A stretch of 64,000 bases of DNA, from NCBI RefSeq assembly GCF_024138715.1, contig NZ_CP092074.1, forward strand, positions 124,001 to 188,000, given 5' to 3'. Source of the DNA: Emticicia sp. 21SJ11W-3 (GTDB taxonomy: Bacteria; Bacteroidota; Bacteroidia; Cytophagales; Spirosomataceae). Shown piece after piece: positions 5,298 through 54,206 of this stretch. Within the stretch, counting starts at the first letter, position 1, and each line of letters opens with the position of its first letter. The notes beneath the pieces were generated by a model, which saw only the letters and a program-made list of their open reading frames with translations, had not been told where the DNA came from and ran no database searches. The translations under genes were made by a program, and so were the position numbers.

Positions 5298-6626
5298 ATG
5301 CAAGTTTGGAAATTTGGCGGTACATCCGTAGGGAAACCGGAGCGTATGCACTCTATTCGTACACTGATTACAGAAGACGGTCAGCGTAAGATTGTTGTTT
5401 TATCTGCCCTTTCGGGTACAACAAACGCTCTTATCTCCATCGGCGAATCTCTGAAGGCAAATAATGATACCGAAGCCACCGAAAAAATAGATGCCCTTTA
5501 TGCGCACTACCAGGCTTTTATTAAAGATTTGTATAAAACCGAAGCAGGCTATAATGCAGGTAAGGCAATTGTAGATAAAGAATTTGGCTTTATCCGCTCG
5601 CTGGTAAGTATCAAACCTTTTACACTAAAGCAGGAGAAAGAAATAGTGGCCGAAGGTGAGCTGCTAAGTACACAAATGTTTGAGACCTACCTGAAAGAAG
5701 AAGGCGTAAGCTCAACTTTGTTACCTGCGCTTGATTTTATGCTGATTGATGCTGACAACGAGCCAGTACTGAGTTTTACGGAAGAGAAGCTGTCGGCCAT
5801 GCTTGCACAATTACCCGACACAGAAATATTCATTACGCAGGGATTCATCTGCCGCAACCCACGTGGCGAGGTAGATAACCTGAAACGCGGAGGCTCTGAT
5901 TACACAGCTTCGCTGATTGGTGGCGCTATCAGTGCTGAGGAGATACAGATTTGGACAGACATTGACGGCATGCACAATAACGACCCGCGTATCGTAAAAA
6001 GGACATTCCCTGTGCGTGAACTGACATTTGAAGAAGCCGCTGAACTGGCTTATTTCGGAGCAAAAATTTTACATCCAAATACCATTACACCTGCAAAAAT
6101 GAGAGGAGTACCTGTGCGTTTGAAAAACACTATGGAGCCAAACGCCTTTGGCACCGTAATAGCGCATAACACAACCGAGTCTGAAATTAAAGCCATTGCG
6201 GCCAAAGACGGCATCACGGCAATATACATTCACTCGACACGTATGCTGAATGCCTACGGATTCTTAACCAAGGTTTTTGAAGTATTTGAGAAGTTTAAAA
6301 CCCCGGTTGATATGATTACCACATCTGAAGTATCAGTGGCAGTAACCATAGACAACCCCGAACACCTGGCAGATATAAGCGCAGCCCTTAGCCAGATAGC
6401 AGAGCTGGAAGAACACGACCGCAACCAGACCATTATCTGTATTGTGGGCGACTTCAAGGCTGATAAAGCCGGGGTGGCACTTAAAGTAATAGAGGCTATG
6501 AAAAACATACCTATCAGAATGATTGCCTACGGAGCCTCCGAACACAACATATCTCTATTGGTTGATACCAAAGACAAAGAAGCAGCGCTCAATGCCCTGA
6601 ACGAAGGTTTATTTACTTTTGAATAA
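5298..6626 (+). CDS. lysC: Aspartate kinase (monofunctional)
   Basis: A 442-residue aspartokinase, phosphorylating L-aspartate in the first step of the lysine, threonine, methionine and diaminopimelate pathways. The N-terminal KFGGTSVGKPERM is the nucleotide/aspartate-binding signature, and RGGSDYTASLIGGAI with WTDIDGMHNNDPRIV completes the catalytic domain. The last 150 residues form tandem ACT domains (ISVAVTIDN-like and MIAYGASEHNISLLV), so feedback by lysine or threonine is likely. It is not fused to homoserine dehydrogenase. It precedes serS by 39 bases and may share its transcript. Confidence 0.93.
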   Translation: MQVWKFGGTSVGKPERMHSIRTLITEDGQRKIVVLSALSGTTNALISIGESLKANNDTEATEKIDALYAHYQAFIKDLYKTEAGYNAGKAIVDKEFGFIRSLVSIKPFTLKQEKEIVAEGELLSTQMFETYLKEEGVSSTLLPALDFMLIDADNEPVLSFTEEKLSAMLAQLPDTEIFITQGFICRNPRGEVDNLKRGGSDYTASLIGGAISAEEIQIWTDIDGMHNNDPRIVKRTFPVRELTFEEAAELAYFGAKILHPNTITPAKMRGVPVRLKNTMEPNAFGTVIAHNTTESEIKAIAAKDGITAIYIHSTRMLNAYGFLTKVFEVFEKFKTPVDMITTSEVSVAVTIDNPEHLADISAALSQIAELEEHDRNQTIICIVGDFKADKAGVALKVIEAMKNIPIRMIAYGASEHNISLLVDTKDKEAALNALNEGLFTFE

Positions 6627-6665
6627 CATTTTGAAAAGCCTTGTGGCTCCATTATCAGGAATACC

Positions 6666-7937
6666 ATGTTACAACTGAATTATATAAAAGAAAACAAGCA
6701 GGCTACTATTGACGGGCTGAAGCGTAAATATTTTAAAAACGCTGAAGAAACTATTGATGCCCTGCTGGATATTGACCAGAAGCGCCGCGAAACTCAGGCC
6801 GAGCTAGACGGCACACTGGCAAAATCAAACGCCTTGGCAAAAGAGATTGGCGGCCTGATGAAAGAAGGCAAAAAAGCAGAGGCCGAAGCAGCCAAAGCAC
6901 AAACGGCTGAACTGAAGGCGCAATCGAAGGTACTGGAAGAAAGCCTGAAAGGACTCGAGGCCGAGCTTTATGAAGTGCTGGTTACTTTACCCAACCTACC
7001 CCATGCCAGTGTACCTGAAGGACGTACTCCTGAAGAGAACCTGAACATTTTTGAAGCGGGCGTAATACCTGAATTACCTGAAACGGCGCAACCTCATTGG
7101 GAGCTAATCAAGCAATACAATATCATTGATTTTGATTTAGGCAATAAGATTACCGGAGCGGGTTTCCCGGTCTACAAAGGGAAAGGAGCAAGAATACAGC
7201 GTGCCATGATAAACTTCTTTTTAGATGAGGCACTGGCAGCTGGTTATGGAGAAATCCAACCTCCGATTCTGATTAATAAAGATTCAGGTTTTGGTACCGG
7301 TCAGCTGCCCGACAAAGAAGGGCAGATGTACCACGCCACTGCCGACGACTTATACCTGATTCCGACAGCCGAGGTGCCTATCACCAATATTTATCGTGAT
7401 GTAATTCTGTCAGAAAACGAATTACCGATTAAGAATGTAGGTTACACGCCATGTTTCCGCCGTGAGGCAGGTAGCTGGGGTGCGCACGTAAGAGGCCTGA
7501 ACCGCCTGCATCAGTTCGATAAGGTGGAAATTGTGCAGATACGCAAGCCGGAAGAATCATATCAGGCTTTAGAAGAAATGGTAGAGCACGTAAAGGGTTT
7601 GCTCACTAAACTAGAGCTACCATACCGTATTCTTCGCCTGTGTGGTGGCGACATGAGCTTTACCTCTGCCTTAACTTTCGACTTTGAGGTATATTCTGCT
7701 GCGCAAAAAAGATGGTTAGAGTGTAGTTCGGTATCAAACTTTGAATCCTATCAGGCTAATCGCCTTAAACTACGCTGCAAGGTAGACGGTAAAAACCAGT
7801 TATTGCATACTTTGAATGGCTCTGCTTTAGCTTTGCCTCGTATATTAGCGGCAATTCTGGAAAACAACCAGACACCGGAGGGCATCAGGATACCAAAAGT
7901 ATTGGTGCCATACTGTGGGTTTGATAGCATTAACTAA
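6666..7937 (+). CDS. serS: Serine--tRNA ligase
   Basis: A 423-residue class II aminoacyl-tRNA synthetase charging tRNA-Ser. The N-terminal 100 residues form the long antiparallel coiled-coil arm that contacts the tRNA variable arm. Class II motif 2 is seen as CFRREAGSWGAHVRGLNR and motif 3 as LNGSALALPRILAAILENNQ; the serine-specific TAEVPITN is present as well. Length is normal. It ends at a strong terminator. Confidence 0.96.
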   Translation: MLQLNYIKENKQATIDGLKRKYFKNAEETIDALLDIDQKRRETQAELDGTLAKSNALAKEIGGLMKEGKKAEAEAAKAQTAELKAQSKVLEESLKGLEAELYEVLVTLPNLPHASVPEGRTPEENLNIFEAGVIPELPETAQPHWELIKQYNIIDFDLGNKITGAGFPVYKGKGARIQRAMINFFLDEALAAGYGEIQPPILINKDSGFGTGQLPDKEGQMYHATADDLYLIPTAEVPITNIYRDVILSENELPIKNVGYTPCFRREAGSWGAHVRGLNRLHQFDKVEIVQIRKPEESYQALEEMVEHVKGLLTKLELPYRILRLCGGDMSFTSALTFDFEVYSAAQKRWLECSSVSNFESYQANRLKLRCKVDGKNQLLHTLNGSALALPRILAAILENNQTPEGIRIPKVLVPYCGFDSIN

Positions 7938-49707: not shown

Positions 49708-50934
49708 ATGGAAACAGCACTTGACCAATCGCTCGGAGGCAAACGGGCGGTATCATCTATACAACAAATTCTCTTGGGGATTCCCATTTATGTTTACATC
49801 AGCGTAGTTGCCTCAAAGCTGGTTATTTTAGGTATACTGTGGGACATCGCCTGGCACATGAGCATCGGGCGTGACGGCCTTTTCTCGGCTCCTCATGTGC
49901 TAATTTATATCGGTGCAGCTTCTGCCGGGTTATTTTCGGGCTTTAAGGTATTAAAGACGTCTTTCTGGGGTAATGACCGCGAAAAAAACAAAATGGTCAA
50001 TTTCTGGGGCATTTTTTATAGTTCGCTCGGCGGTCTATTCTGTATCTGGGGTGGTCTGGCTGCCATTACCTCTGCCCCGTTCGACGATTGGTGGCATAAT
50101 ACCTACGGGCTTGATGTGGAGATTTTCTCTCCGCCACACACGGTGCTTCTGTTGGGCTTAATGAGTGTGCAGGTAGGAGCTATGGTGTCGGTACTGGCTT
50201 TTTTGAACAGAAAAGATACCTTTTACTTTTTATCTGCCAGCCAAGCCGAAAGGCGGTTGAAACGGCTTCAATGGATGTTTGTATTTACTGCAGGGTTTCT
50301 GGTTACTACTATGTTTACGGCACTTTCTGAATTTCTCGACCGTTGGCAATTACATGGGGTTTCTTATTATCAGATTGCCTCTGCCGCATTTCCGGTATTA
50401 TTGCTGGCAACAGCACGCGGCTCGGGCATGAAATGGGGCGCTACCTACATTGCAGCTACGTTTATGTTTTTTTTCTGGGCGGTTAATGCCACATTGCGCC
50501 TGTTACCTGCCGAACCGCTTTTAGGACCTGTTCATAACAGAATCACAACGTATCAGACCCTGGGGTTTCCAATATTACTGATTTTCCCGGCAATAGGGCT
50601 TGATTTGCTGAGAGCCAGACTGGCAAATGTAAATGACTGGTTCTTAGCTTTGCCGCTGGCATTTATTTATCTGCTTATTCTGGTAGGTTTCAGTTATCCT
50701 TTTGGCAATTTTATTCTTGAATCCCCCATGGCACGTAGTTGGTTCTGGGGTAGTAGCTCGTGGTCTTATCAAAACAGCCCCGACTGGGAGTTTCGTTATA
50801 AATTTACCGAATGGAGCTCTACAAAAGGTTTGGGTAATTGGGCAAGCGGGCTAGGCATTGCCTTATTATTAAGCATGCTGTCTACACGCATTGGCTTAGC
50901 CTGGGGAAAATGGATGCAAAAAGTACAACGCTGA
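49708..50934 (+). CDS. Unrecognised polytopic membrane protein with duplicated His motif
   Basis: A 408-residue membrane protein with about ten hydrophobic segments that I do not recognise. Two similar motifs are 80 residues apart: W45-D-I-A-W-H50 ... D56 ... F59-S-A-P-H63, and D126-D-W-W-H130 ... D136 ... F140-S-P-P-H144. Each pairs two His with a nearby Asp at the end of a helix. H216 and H276 are further His. The pattern suggests metal or haem binding in or near the membrane. The next gene starts 25 bases later, so they are likely one operon. Confidence 0.6.
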   Translation: METALDQSLGGKRAVSSIQQILLGIPIYVYISVVASKLVILGILWDIAWHMSIGRDGLFSAPHVLIYIGAASAGLFSGFKVLKTSFWGNDREKNKMVNFWGIFYSSLGGLFCIWGGLAAITSAPFDDWWHNTYGLDVEIFSPPHTVLLLGLMSVQVGAMVSVLAFLNRKDTFYFLSASQAERRLKRLQWMFVFTAGFLVTTMFTALSEFLDRWQLHGVSYYQIASAAFPVLLLATARGSGMKWGATYIAATFMFFFWAVNATLRLLPAEPLLGPVHNRITTYQTLGFPILLIFPAIGLDLLRARLANVNDWFLALPLAFIYLLILVGFSYPFGNFILESPMARSWFWGSSSWSYQNSPDWEFRYKFTEWSSTKGLGNWASGLGIALLLSMLSTRIGLAWGKWMQKVQR

Positions 50935-50959
50935 TGACCAATAATTGAAAAGCATAAAA

Positions 50960-52597
50960 ATGAAAAAGCAAATGACATTAAAAATAATAGCCTTTATCTT
51001 GTTAAATCTGTGCTTTTTAGTGCAGGTAAATGCCCATATCGGAAGTGCAGGCATAGTGCAGGAGGGCAAAGCCGGTAAATACCAGATACAGGTATATGTA
51101 GAACCGCCGGATGTGATTCCGGGTGTTGCCAGGGTTTCGGTTTCAGTAGATGGAACAGACATTGAAAGTGTAAAACTGAGCCCGATTTACTATTGGACAG
51201 GCGACGAGGGCTCGCCCAAGGAAGATGAAGCATTGCCGGTGGCAGGAGAACCCGGCAGATATGAGGGTAATATTTGGTTAATGGAAACCGGAGCAGCCAG
51301 TGTAAAAGTTAGGATATCAGGCAACAGGGGCGCCGGCGAGACGCTGATACCGATTGCTGCCCTGGCCACCGCTAAGCGAGACTTGCCTGAGTCTTTAGGG
51401 TGGATTTTAGGCGGTCTGGCTCTATTGCTGGTGGGAATAATGACTACCATAGTAGGCGCAAGCAATAGTGATAGCCTTTTGCAACCCGGAGAGACAGGCG
51501 GGCAGGGCTTTAAAAGACGCAAGGTGGTGGGTTCTACCATTGGTTTAAGCTTCTGCGGGCTTTTGTTGTTTGTGGGCAATTCGTGGTGGGGCTCTATATC
51601 AAAAGAATACCAGCAAAACTATATTTACAAACCTTACACGGCTACTACAAAAATAAAGGTAGAGAATGCCCGGCGGGTATTGAATTTTCAAATTGATTCT
51701 AACTCTGTTCAGGGGCGATGGACCAGTTTTCTGATTCCTGACCACGGCAAACTGATGCACCTGTTTCTGGTAAGGCAAGGCACGCTTGACGCCTTTGCGC
51801 ATTTGCACCCAAGCCGGAAGGACACGCTTACTTTTGAAGCGTCCCTGCCGGATTTACCTGCCGGGAAATATCTGGTATACGCCGATATCCTTCGTTTTCA
51901 TGGCTTACAATATACCATTGCTGATACGGTTGAGATTCCGGCTTTGAGAGTCGTTCAGGAAAGTTATGAGAAGCAAAACAGCGATACTGACGATACCTAT
52001 GTAATTAATAACCCTATTAACAGAAAAACGCCCGGCGTGGCAGATGCCGGCATTAGTATTTGTGGCTCACCGGGGGTAAAAACCGTTTTAAAAGATGGCA
52101 CAAGTATTATTTGGGAAGAGAAGCCCGGGCAGGTGCTTAGAGCAGGGCAGGTTAATACCCTTAATTTTGCTGTGATAAGTCCTGACGGTAAACCCGCCGA
52201 GTTGCAGACTTATCTGGGTATGATGGGCCATGCAGTTGTGCTGAAAGACGATGGCTCTGTTTATATTCACCTGCACCCGAACGGAACATTTTCATCAACT
52301 GCTCAGCAGGTAATGGAAAAGCGCGTTAGCGAAAATACAAATCCTGGCTATAGAGTTACCAGTGCCAGACAATTCAGAGACAGTGTTGATAACCTTTTGT
52401 TAAACTTACAGGCAATGCCCGAAACCCAGAGAGACAGACTGTTAATGGGGGGTATGACCCATAACATGAGCAGCCATCATGGGGGCAGTGTCAATTTTCC
52501 TTATGTTTTCCCCACACCGGGTAATTACCGCATCTGGTTGCAGGTAAAACGTAACGGGAAGATAATAACAGGCGCTTTTGATGCAAAAGTAATTTAA
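50960..52597 (+). CDS. Exported membrane protein with two HLHP metal-binding-like domains
   Basis: A 545-residue protein from ATG 50960 (an upstream in-frame TTG at 50945 is less likely). A signal peptide ends V-N-A about residue 25; an extracytoplasmic beta domain follows; two helices at about 148-167 and 192-212; then two related beta domains. The first has DHGKLMHLFL and FAHLHP (H281, H283), the second MGHAVVL and YIHLHP (H437, H439), plus HNMSSHHGG at 501-509. The M-G-H ... H-L-H-P pattern is found in YtkA/FixH-like copper-associated proteins; copper binding here is inferred. Confidence 0.6.
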   Translation: MKKQMTLKIIAFILLNLCFLVQVNAHIGSAGIVQEGKAGKYQIQVYVEPPDVIPGVARVSVSVDGTDIESVKLSPIYYWTGDEGSPKEDEALPVAGEPGRYEGNIWLMETGAASVKVRISGNRGAGETLIPIAALATAKRDLPESLGWILGGLALLLVGIMTTIVGASNSDSLLQPGETGGQGFKRRKVVGSTIGLSFCGLLLFVGNSWWGSISKEYQQNYIYKPYTATTKIKVENARRVLNFQIDSNSVQGRWTSFLIPDHGKLMHLFLVRQGTLDAFAHLHPSRKDTLTFEASLPDLPAGKYLVYADILRFHGLQYTIADTVEIPALRVVQESYEKQNSDTDDTYVINNPINRKTPGVADAGISICGSPGVKTVLKDGTSIIWEEKPGQVLRAGQVNTLNFAVISPDGKPAELQTYLGMMGHAVVLKDDGSVYIHLHPNGTFSSTAQQVMEKRVSENTNPGYRVTSARQFRDSVDNLLLNLQAMPETQRDRLLMGGMTHNMSSHHGGSVNFPYVFPTPGNYRIWLQVKRNGKIITGAFDAKVI

Positions 52598-52600
52598 AAG

Positions 52601-53500
52601 TCAGGTAGGAATGTCAGTGTCCGTTATAACTGAGGCTGATTGTTGACTGTTTCGGAAATTGGATGGAGACATTCCTATAATTTTACTGAATAATCTTATA
52701 AAGTATTTATAATCTTCATAGCCTAACTGAAAGGCAATTTCTTTGATGCTTTTGTTGGTATAGAATAATAAGCGTTGCGCCTCGCGGAAAATTTCCTGTT
52801 GTATAAAATAGGTAGAAGAAAACCCTGTAACTGCCTTGATGGTGTCGTTGAGATAACTAACCGTGATATTCATTTTTGAGGCGAAATCGGCAGGTCTTTT
52901 CAGTTCCAGATAATGGTTCTGCACTAATTGATTGAATGTTTTTACAATCTCAACACTTCTGGAAGAATACTCTTGTATGCGTTTATCTTCCTGTTGCTGA
53001 AAAATGGAAACGACTTTATAGAAAAAAGAGTTGATAAGGGTTTGTATGAGTTGATGCTGAAAAGTTTCAGATTTTTTCTCTTTTAAAGAAGAATAAAGTA
53101 ACTGGAATATATGATTGAACCATTTTTTTTCAATATCATGCAAACGGAGGATTACTATTTTGGTGAATGATTGCTCAATAACAGTACGGGCATTTTCATC
53201 AATCAGTTTGGCATCAAAGGCAATTAACCATCCTGCCGGAACATCCCCCAAGCCGGGTTGATGAACCTGCCCCGGAGATGAAACTAAAAGTGACGGCGAG
53301 CTAATTTCTATTTCCTGAAAATCAATATTAAAATTCAAATTACCTTCTTCAAGAAAGAAACAGGTGTAATGGTCATGGCGATGCGGAATGGAAACTTCTT
53401 CAATCAGATCTATCAATGGGTCGATTTCTGACATCGAAAAAACCTCTACCCCTATATGCCTTTCAGGCAGGTGTAATATATGGATGTGCTCTTTTGGCAT
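52601..53500 (-). CDS. AraC-family transcriptional regulator
   Basis: A 299-residue regulator with an N-terminal cupin-like input (residues about 20-110; the stretch with HRHDHYTCFFLEEGNLNF is typical) and a C-terminal AraC DNA-binding domain (TVSYLNDTIKAVTGFSSTYF and SIKEIAFQLGYEDYKYFIRLF). It lies 10 bases after the flavin-reductase gene in one operon. AraC regulators next to siderophore-interacting proteins usually respond to iron or a metabolite; the ligand is not known here. Confidence 0.88.
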   Translation of the reverse strand: MPKEHIHILHLPERHIGVEVFSMSEIDPLIDLIEEVSIPHRHDHYTCFFLEEGNLNFNIDFQEIEISSPSLLVSSPGQVHQPGLGDVPAGWLIAFDAKLIDENARTVIEQSFTKIVILRLHDIEKKWFNHIFQLLYSSLKEKKSETFQHQLIQTLINSFFYKVVSIFQQQEDKRIQEYSSRSVEIVKTFNQLVQNHYLELKRPADFASKMNITVSYLNDTIKAVTGFSSTYFIQQEIFREAQRLLFYTNKSIKEIAFQLGYEDYKYFIRLFSKIIGMSPSNFRNSQQSASVITDTDIPT

Positions 53501-53510
53501 GCTTATCTGT

Positions 53511-54206
53511 TTATGACCAGAATCCGTAGGCGTATATTTTGGCTTTTATACCCGAAATAGCTTTCAGTTTTTTTCGTAGTCCGGTTACCATCGGTATATA
53601 TCCTGCAATATAAATAGAAGCATAACTACTTAAGTCTTTAGACAGATACCATTTTTCAAGTACATCTGTTGCATCGCCCTGCGGATTAGCTATAAATTCA
53701 AAATCGGGATTATCGTTTACAAGTGAAGAGGGGATTTGATAATTGTTGTCTAATACTACGGCTACATCCAGCGGGTAGTATTCCCGGTTGGTTAATTGTT
53801 TCAGACTTAAACAATGCCCTAACGCGCTGCCATCTGCCAGACAAAGTATTTTGCCATTAGTGGCCGGTAGTTGCGCCGCATGGGCTACGCCCAATAAAAC
53901 CTCATCTCCTGTTTTCAGGTTCTGAGCCCAGCGGCTACCTGCTCCGTTGTGGCCTGCCTCTACAAACAACGTGCATATCTTTTTATCAGTGTTCCATAAG
54001 GCAGGCGTATAATCTCTGAACTGTAAATTATCTACTTTACATTTTACCCGCTTAATCGTGTTCCATTTGTTGAAATCAGTTGTAGGGAGGTGCACATCTA
54101 TTTCATAGAGTGTTGCAGGTTCCCAGACCCTGATTCCCACTACTATTGATGGACTGAACAATTGGTCCATCAGGTTTGATACCGCCTTTGCCAGAATATT
54201 TGCCAT
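53511..54206 (-). CDS. Siderophore-interacting protein (FAD-binding reductase family)
   Basis: A 231-residue protein of the siderophore-interacting/ferric reductase family: RDYTPALWN is the FAD-binding RxYT motif, GAGSRWAQNLKTGDEVLLG and the later IYIAGYIPMVTGLRKKLK form the NAD(P)H-binding lobe. Members reduce ferric siderophores in the cytosol, but no siderophore transport genes are nearby. It shares its transcript with the AraC regulator that follows. Confidence 0.8.
   Translation of the reverse strand: MANILAKAVSNLMDQLFSPSIVVGIRVWEPATLYEIDVHLPTTDFNKWNTIKRVKCKVDNLQFRDYTPALWNTDKKICTLFVEAGHNGAGSRWAQNLKTGDEVLLGVAHAAQLPATNGKILCLADGSALGHCLSLKQLTNREYYPLDVAVVLDNNYQIPSSLVNDNPDFEFIANPQGDATDVLEKWYLSKDLSSYASIYIAGYIPMVTGLRKKLKAISGIKAKIYAYGFWS

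Follow-up and report, generated by a model that had tools for sequence, protein, structure and literature searches.

To our knowledge, no relative of subunit C is known outside the copper membrane monooxygenases (CuMMOs), in which subunits C, A and B are separate proteins. The B subunit PmoB is laid out as a signal peptide, a beta domain, two helices and a further beta domain, and its His brace is formed by the N-terminal histidine together with an HxH motif in the first domain. Subunit C, PmoC, holds two metal sites. PMC12576850 gives Asp156, His160 and His173 as the ligands of CuC and Asn227, His231 and His245 as those of CuD, with Arg165 close by, states that CuC held zinc in the first crystal structures and describes the active site of methane monooxygenase as long disputed. 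PMC11194816 places the active site at CuD, where the surrounding residues are neutral, and takes a carboxylate as the mark of CuC, which is not regarded as active. Here, we compare these enzymes with two adjacent genes, P1 and P2, of Emticicia sp. 21SJ11W-3, located in a window of 64,000 nucleotides that is the whole stretch of DNA analyzed (contig NZ_CP092074.1, positions 124,001 to 188,000). We give a probability of about 0.65 to the reading that P1 and P2 are the two subunits of a copper-handling complex in the cytoplasmic membrane and that this complex has a common ancestor with the copper core of subunit C of the CuMMOs.

The likeness to subunit C (PmoC/AmoC/HmoC, PF04896) lies in a stretch of roughly 100 residues of P1 that carries two motifs, D-x3-H-x12-H and D-x3-H-x13-H. 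In the first, D46, H50 (+4) and H63 (+13) repeat the CuC ligands in spacing and order, and R55 stands at the place of Arg165. In the second, D126, H130 (+4) and H144 (+14) repeat the spacing of the CuD ligands with both histidines present, whereas Asn227 is replaced by Asp126 in 121/121 P1 rows. These rows comprise 115 sequences from Bacteroidota, some of them duplicates (filtering at 90% identity leaves 71), together with six actinobacterial ones, and D46, H50, R55, H63, D126, H130 and H144 are identical in every one of them, across Bacteroidota and Actinomycetota. The invariant columns among 38 aligned P1 proteins include W45, D46, W49, H50, R55, D56, P62 and H63 as well as D126, W129, H130, D136, P142, P143 and H144. 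Both motif copies noticed in a preliminary description of this locus (W45-D46-I-x-W49-H50...P62-H63 and D126-D-W-W129-H130...P-P-H144) are thereby recovered, and the four histidines, whose lack of conservation together with a wide separation in models it had named as a ground for giving up its reading, do not vary. Its idea that copper or another metal is handled at the membrane is supported, since the paired histidines match the PmoC copper ligands in order and spacing; the link to the CuMMOs goes beyond what it had read. P1 also departs from subunit C: its first site comes after only 45 residues (155 in PmoC), some 260 more follow the second site, and the protein scores below the Pfam cut-off.

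Profile alignment places both sites in register at once. A 38-row P1 alignment matched 21 PmoC sequences from viral contigs in a single hhalign alignment with an expectation value (E) of 0.0011, and larger P1 and PmoC/AmoC sets gave E 3e-4 to 9e-4. The score of Bacteroidota P1 against PmoC/AmoC, 34.7, was reached by none of 120 shuffles that preserve the hydrophobic pattern (mean 16.8, maximum 27.6) and exceeded the best of 43 decoy families (24.1), a modest control because only six of the 43 are polytopic by a crude hydropathy count. With 100 shuffles each, the first 176 residues of P1 scored 33.5 where no shuffle exceeded 22.0; for the full-length protein the corresponding values are 34.0 and 29.7. 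Helices 1-2 and 3-4 of P1 are an internal duplication, with E 1.8e-5 for Bacteroidota and 1.6e-11 for five actinobacterial proteins (the M. vanbaalenii protein was left out of the latter test). The AlphaFold2 model of P1 has ten long helices, a pLDDT (predicted local distance difference test) of 82 and a pTM (predicted template modeling score) of 0.85.

The same two sites recur in distant actinobacterial relatives. Searching plasmids with P1 by tblastn returned five records (E 7e-7 to 8e-6), and three further loci came from a repeat search that started from the Streptomyces protein. Six proteins were used, one of two identical Streptomyces sequences being kept and a Rubrobacter relative (L315) with stops in frame being dropped. 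Against P1 these six gave E 3e-17 at a probability of 98.9%, and in only one of them, from M. vanbaalenii, is the first-site spacing +15 instead of +13. Aligned on their own with PmoC/AmoC, they show the same two sites at E 3e-4 to 5e-4, with a score of 37.3 that 0/120 shuffles equaled (mean 15.0, maximum 23.2). For two of the six, AmoC is the top match among 24,736 Pfam models, in the CuC region and under the cut-off (E 0.044 and 0.094). In addition, genes annotated for copper or heavy metals stand within about 5 kb of four of the six, in line with the earlier copper proposal: CopC lies directly upstream of the M. vanbaalenii relative; a multicopper oxidase and cytochrome c biogenesis genes are near, though not adjacent to, that of Streptomyces F2; a cupredoxin, a heavy-metal domain and a P-type ATPase are near that of S. 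mirabilis; and a metal-sensitive regulator and two heavy-metal P-type ATPases are near that of Leifsonia. The context is not clear for M. aubagnense and NBB4: each has a BlaI/MecI/CopY-family regulator nearby, accompanied by a YHS protein in the former and by CcdA in the latter. Because metal genes are common on large plasmids in general, we take this context as supportive and not as proof.

P1 and P2 are a real, conserved gene pair. The coordinates confirm two adjacent genes, with 25 bases between the P1 stop and the P2 ATG at 50960; across the loci, the gap to the first ATG has a median of six bases (range -103 to 514) and is at most 50 in 66 of 79 loci. P2 directly follows P1 in 39 of 40 loci, the exception (L064) being a contig edge, and is present in 79 of 81 loci (80 named loci plus the window), one of the other two (L090) ending just past P1. 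The two sets share genomes and are therefore not independent. The expectation that the pair is always adjacent thus holds nearly throughout and fails at a single locus, L092, which has P1 without P2. The proposal of two interacting parts gains from this adjacency and from a putative fusion: in five of the six actinobacterial relatives the helices are followed by a beta domain starting AHDPGQG, and the C-terminal part of these five aligns with the first domain and helix of P2 (hhalign E 0.0013, probability 19%; E 0.032 for the whole actinobacterial set against all of P2). If the assignment of this P2-like domain is right, it suggests that P1 and P2 act together. P1 is widespread within one Bacteroidota family, with a match in 91 of 150 sampled genomes and 21 of 36 genera, and rare across the phylum, where a single-sequence search found it in 5/296 genomes and a profile search in 5/395; two of the former five (L032, L033) are chance hits that overlap reading frames of unrelated proteins. 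Scanning of genome contigs returned 380 relatives, the best 80 of which were kept; these 80 include Emticicia, Arcicella, Siphonobacter, Dyadobacter, Runella, Spirosoma, Marivirga and Mucilaginibacter, and the closest named relatives belong to Emticicia (Bacteroidota), with identities of up to 75%.

P2 brings conserved histidines of its own. As the preliminary description had it, a polytopic protein is paired with an exported two-helix protein: the AlphaFold2 model of P2, of modest confidence (pLDDT 75), begins with a signal-peptide-like segment, followed by a beta domain, a pair of long helices and, at the C-terminal end, a larger beta region. Position 26 is histidine in 107/107 rows with a residue there and is preceded by Ala, Gly or Ser in all 107, as expected of a predicted mature N-terminal histidine; three further rows (L043-L045) were begun too far downstream, their N-terminal parts being encoded upstream without an ATG. 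Seven C-terminal histidines and Cys368 are invariant in 110/110 rows (64 after the 90% filter), and no conserved histidine occurs in residues 27-261. Two M-G-H...H-L-H-P repeats had been described here. One reads so, whereas the other is H262-G-K-L-M-H267...A-H281-L-H283-P, and the His-rich end HNMSSHHGG, once put forward as a metal feature, is not conserved in the 36-row alignment. P2 resembles PmoB (PF04744) in its layout, the mature N-terminal histidine included, and in being encoded after the C-like and A-like parts. It differs in that its HxH motifs lie in the C-terminal part, with none conserved in the first domain, and in that this C-terminal part is larger. By sequence P2 and PmoB show no similarity (hhalign E 0.28-0.4), PmoB is not among the 50 best fold matches shown for P2, and none of 36 P2 rows matches the CuMMO Pfam models at E 0.5 among the 20 families listed.

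Copper proteins of other kinds also show some likeness to P2. Its model matches the Helicobacter pylori copper protein CrdA (probability 1.00, template modeling (TM) score 0.63 by target length, rank 29), and the weak Pfam matches of the 36 P2 proteins include YtkA (three, best E 0.0017) and CopC (three, best E 0.037), which we take to be copper-linked families. The P2 of the window reaches E 0.08 and 14 bits with YtkA against a cut-off of 25.9, and neither YtkA nor CopC scores above its curated cut-off. Unlike YtkA-like proteins, CopC and CrdA, P2 has a helix hairpin as its anchor as well as a second His-rich region. A Gloeocapsa plasmid protein of 280 amino acids (L317:4839-5681) has two His motifs like those of the P2 C-terminal region, and its gene immediately precedes those of a heavy-metal-associated domain protein and a P-type ATPase; the P2 region thus looks like a free-standing metal-protein family.

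Several results weigh against common ancestry with subunit C or against a copper role. The hhalign probabilities are just 20-38% in spite of E 3e-4 to 1.1e-3, a scan of 38 Bacteroidota P1 proteins gave no match to AmoC, the P1 profile finds no PDB sequence even at E 10, and the Foldseek matches of the P1 model to C subunits are weak (ammonia monooxygenase subunit C, probability 0.07). The four other actinobacterial relatives have FixH (E 0.01), Acyl_transf_3 (E 3.4e-5, spanning residues 117-298, past the motifs) or, in two cases, no Pfam match, and the actinobacterial set lacks similarity to PmoA (103/120 shuffles as high). Most fold matches of P2 are generic beta sandwiches, and its weak Pfam matches include unrelated families in equal numbers. 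At the Bacteroidota loci (80 named plus the window) only P2 is a near-constant neighbor, no copper-like gene was seen among 15 other neighbors from their first 60 residues, read with no family search, and at L092 (P1 at 6001-7221, in a metagenome-assembled genome) P2 was not found in the next 6 kb. The low probabilities and the missing AmoC matches, together with weak ZIP matches in 3/38 P1 proteins (best E 0.045) and the zinc that PMC12576850 reports for CuC in the first crystal structures, would fit a D/H/H site that arose by convergence in an unrelated polytopic family binding zinc or another metal, its PmoC likeness being chance. We consider this improbable, given that the Bacteroidota and the actinobacterial set, taken separately, align with PmoC/AmoC at the same two sites and each outscore all of their 120 shuffles, that the spacings agree at two sites in the same order with the Arg165 counterpart kept, and that copper or heavy-metal genes occur near four of the six actinobacterial relatives. 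A copper permease, in which P1 moves copper across the membrane and P2 is its periplasmic donor, is a narrower form of the copper-handling reading; the ten long helices, the conserved Asp and His at the ends of helices 1-4 and the P-type ATPase genes near two actinobacterial relatives speak for it, whereas the invariant Asp and His appear to lie at one face and the invariant columns do not seem to form a ligand ladder through the membrane. We regard the permease as rather unlikely.

More far-reaching is the possibility of a complete copper membrane oxygenase acting on a small substrate at the membrane, with P1 as fused C and A, P2 as B, and counterparts of both CuC and CuD in place. In a Foldseek search with the whole P1 model (the range aligned on P1 is not reported), two particulate methane monooxygenase (pMMO) chains of 241 amino acids, 7s4h_B and 9cl2_Ca, rank second and third with probabilities of 0.99 and 1.00, E 0.18-0.21 and TM 0.53-0.55 by target length, behind an unrelated repeat protein at probability 0.41. 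We read 9cl2_Ca as PmoA (PF02461) because 9cl2 is among the entries of the 241-residue beta-subunit chain, and 7s4h_B is taken to be the same subunit. By sequence, P1 residues 176-331 align with seven PmoA-type proteins at E 0.025-0.027, where two of 120 shuffles score as high and none is as long, and the C-terminal half alone, under relaxed settings, covers nearly all of PmoA at E 0.014. With three PmoA-type proteins, however, E is 0.05-0.12 and the score falls within the shuffles (20.1 for the C-terminal half against a maximum of 24.9; 19.2 for whole P1 against 29.2), and one of the 43 decoy families outscores PmoA (25.8 against 23.8); we therefore leave this co-linear match as weak. P1 is thus a possible C-A fusion, with a fold match and a weak alignment to PmoA; it would differ from the CuMMOs in that the A-like part is fused behind a C-like part and not encoded by a separate gene.

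The PmoB-like layout of P2 and the gene order C-A-B, as in actinobacterial operons L318, L319 and L321, likewise speak for an oxygenase. Against it stand the Asp in place of the CuD Asn227, the P2 first domain without a conserved HxH, the absence of P2-PmoB sequence similarity and a PmoA match that does not rise above its controls. Gene order is no fixed mark either, L320 being A-B-C. The AmoC, AMO and Monooxygenase_B models found nothing in the genome of the window, which says little because none of 14 control genomes passed the cut-off. On balance, an oxygenase is less likely than copper handling, though a serious rival. P1-P2 is not a CuMMO proper, since the CuD Asn is Asp, the PmoB HxH is missing from the first domain of P2, which keeps His26 of the brace, and no model reaches its cut-off; there are, moreover, two genes only in place of separate C, A and B subunits. 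We think that the pair most likely acquires copper, keeps it safely bound or passes it on, and is less likely to hydroxylate a substrate: handling is favored because the second site has a carboxylate and not the Asn of the proposed catalytic CuD, and because of the copper or heavy-metal genes near four of the six actinobacterial relatives. The pair very probably binds copper, while for copper handling as its role (holding, transfer or transport) we see roughly even odds.

In the copper-handling complex that we propose, P1 carries by its sequence two copies of a membrane hairpin whose D/H/H sets match the CuC and CuD ligands, and P2 is its near-constant exported partner. Copper would be bound at both P1 sites, which may sit where helices 1-4 end on the periplasmic side. 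This placement is suggested by the export of P2 and the comparison with PmoC, as the positive-inside count is even (eight Lys/Arg on each side) and gives no orientation. P2, with its predicted mature N-terminal histidine and clustered HxH motifs, could gather periplasmic copper and exchange it with P1.

Consistent with the preliminary description, which could place neither protein, P1 and P2 of the window stay under the cut-offs of all Pfam and NCBIfam models, and a PDB sequence search gave a convincing match for neither. Among the open-licence papers listed for CuMMO and PmoC-like proteins, no title or abstract start names such a family, and an earlier description elsewhere is possible. A family that keeps both PmoC copper-ligand sets would supply an outgroup for methane monooxygenase, would possibly be easier to purify and would allow a direct test of what the CuD Asn does to copper chemistry. 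It would also suggest a first function for a pair whose P1 is this frequent in one Bacteroidota family. A bolder view, which we hold to be unlikely, is that the CuMMOs came out of a wider superfamily of copper membrane proteins, of which P1-P2 would be a compact member made of two polypeptides: a duplicated D-H-H hairpin would have given two copper sites, the second would have become the CuD of methane and ammonia oxidizers by an Asp-to-Asn change, and the Bacteroidota complex (fused C-A plus B) would be an active copper oxygenase.

Table 1. Features of the P1-P2 locus (positions in the window).
Feature	Position	Strand	Basis
P1, polytopic membrane protein, 408 amino acids	49708-50934	+	Open reading frame
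P1 residues 27-168, four-helix core, two D-x3-H...H hairpin copies	49786-50211	+	hhalign to PmoC/AmoC over residues 46-145, E 6e-4 to 1.1e-3
P1 D46, H50, R55, H63, counterparts of PmoC CuC ligands and Arg165	49843-49896	+	Gap-free hhalign alignment, invariance
P1 D126, H130, H144, counterparts of PmoC CuD ligands	50083-50139	+	Alignment, invariance
P1 residues 177-408, six more helices, possible PmoA equivalent	50236-50931	+	Foldseek; weak hhalign alignment
P2, exported membrane-anchored protein, 545 amino acids from ATG	50960-52597	+	Open reading frame; in-frame TTG at 50945
P2 His26, predicted first residue after signal-peptide cleavage	51035-51037	+	Row conservation
P2 two long helices, residues 144-171 and 182-220, presumed membrane hairpin	51389-51619	+	AlphaFold2 model, DSSP
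P2 C-terminal region, H262, H267, H281-x-H283, H424, H437-x-H439	51743-52276	+	Row conservation

Other Pfam readings of P1 are scattered and weak and were set aside, including lycopene cyclase as the commonest (7/38 proteins, best E 0.062), DUF6338 as the best (E 0.00098, 3/38) and a zinc transporter of the ZIP type. A place for P1 on phages was likewise rejected: ten viral-contig stretches fit a pattern and none encodes a relative, and a fold search of BFVD with P1 gave nothing convincing. In IMG/VR contigs, 136 stretches encode a PmoC relative; among the 80 of these 136 that were kept, none has a PmoA or PmoB match (M. capsulatus proteins, E 1e-5). The Mycolicibacterium chubuense NBB4 plasmid pMYCCH.01 (L324, L319) carries both an annotated CuMMO operon in the order C-A-B at about 572-575 kb and the distant P1 relative at about 407-408 kb.

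At the Bacteroidota loci, the commonest neighbor apart from P2 is a gene just upstream, present at 34 of them; another four genes form a block common to 33 loci, with flanks that vary beyond it. The gene after P1 at L092 is a lipoprotein-like reading frame of 465 amino acids. P1 occurs as tandem duplicates at L064:6513-9021 and L073:7103-9773, followed in the latter by one P2, and three genomes (G114, G044, G018) have two P1 genes each, far apart or on different contigs. In the window itself, two genes lie directly downstream of P2 on the opposite strand, an AraC-type regulator (52601-53500) and, beside it, a short protein resembling siderophore-interacting flavin adenine dinucleotide-binding proteins (53511-54206; Pfam E 2.5e-4, under the cut-off).

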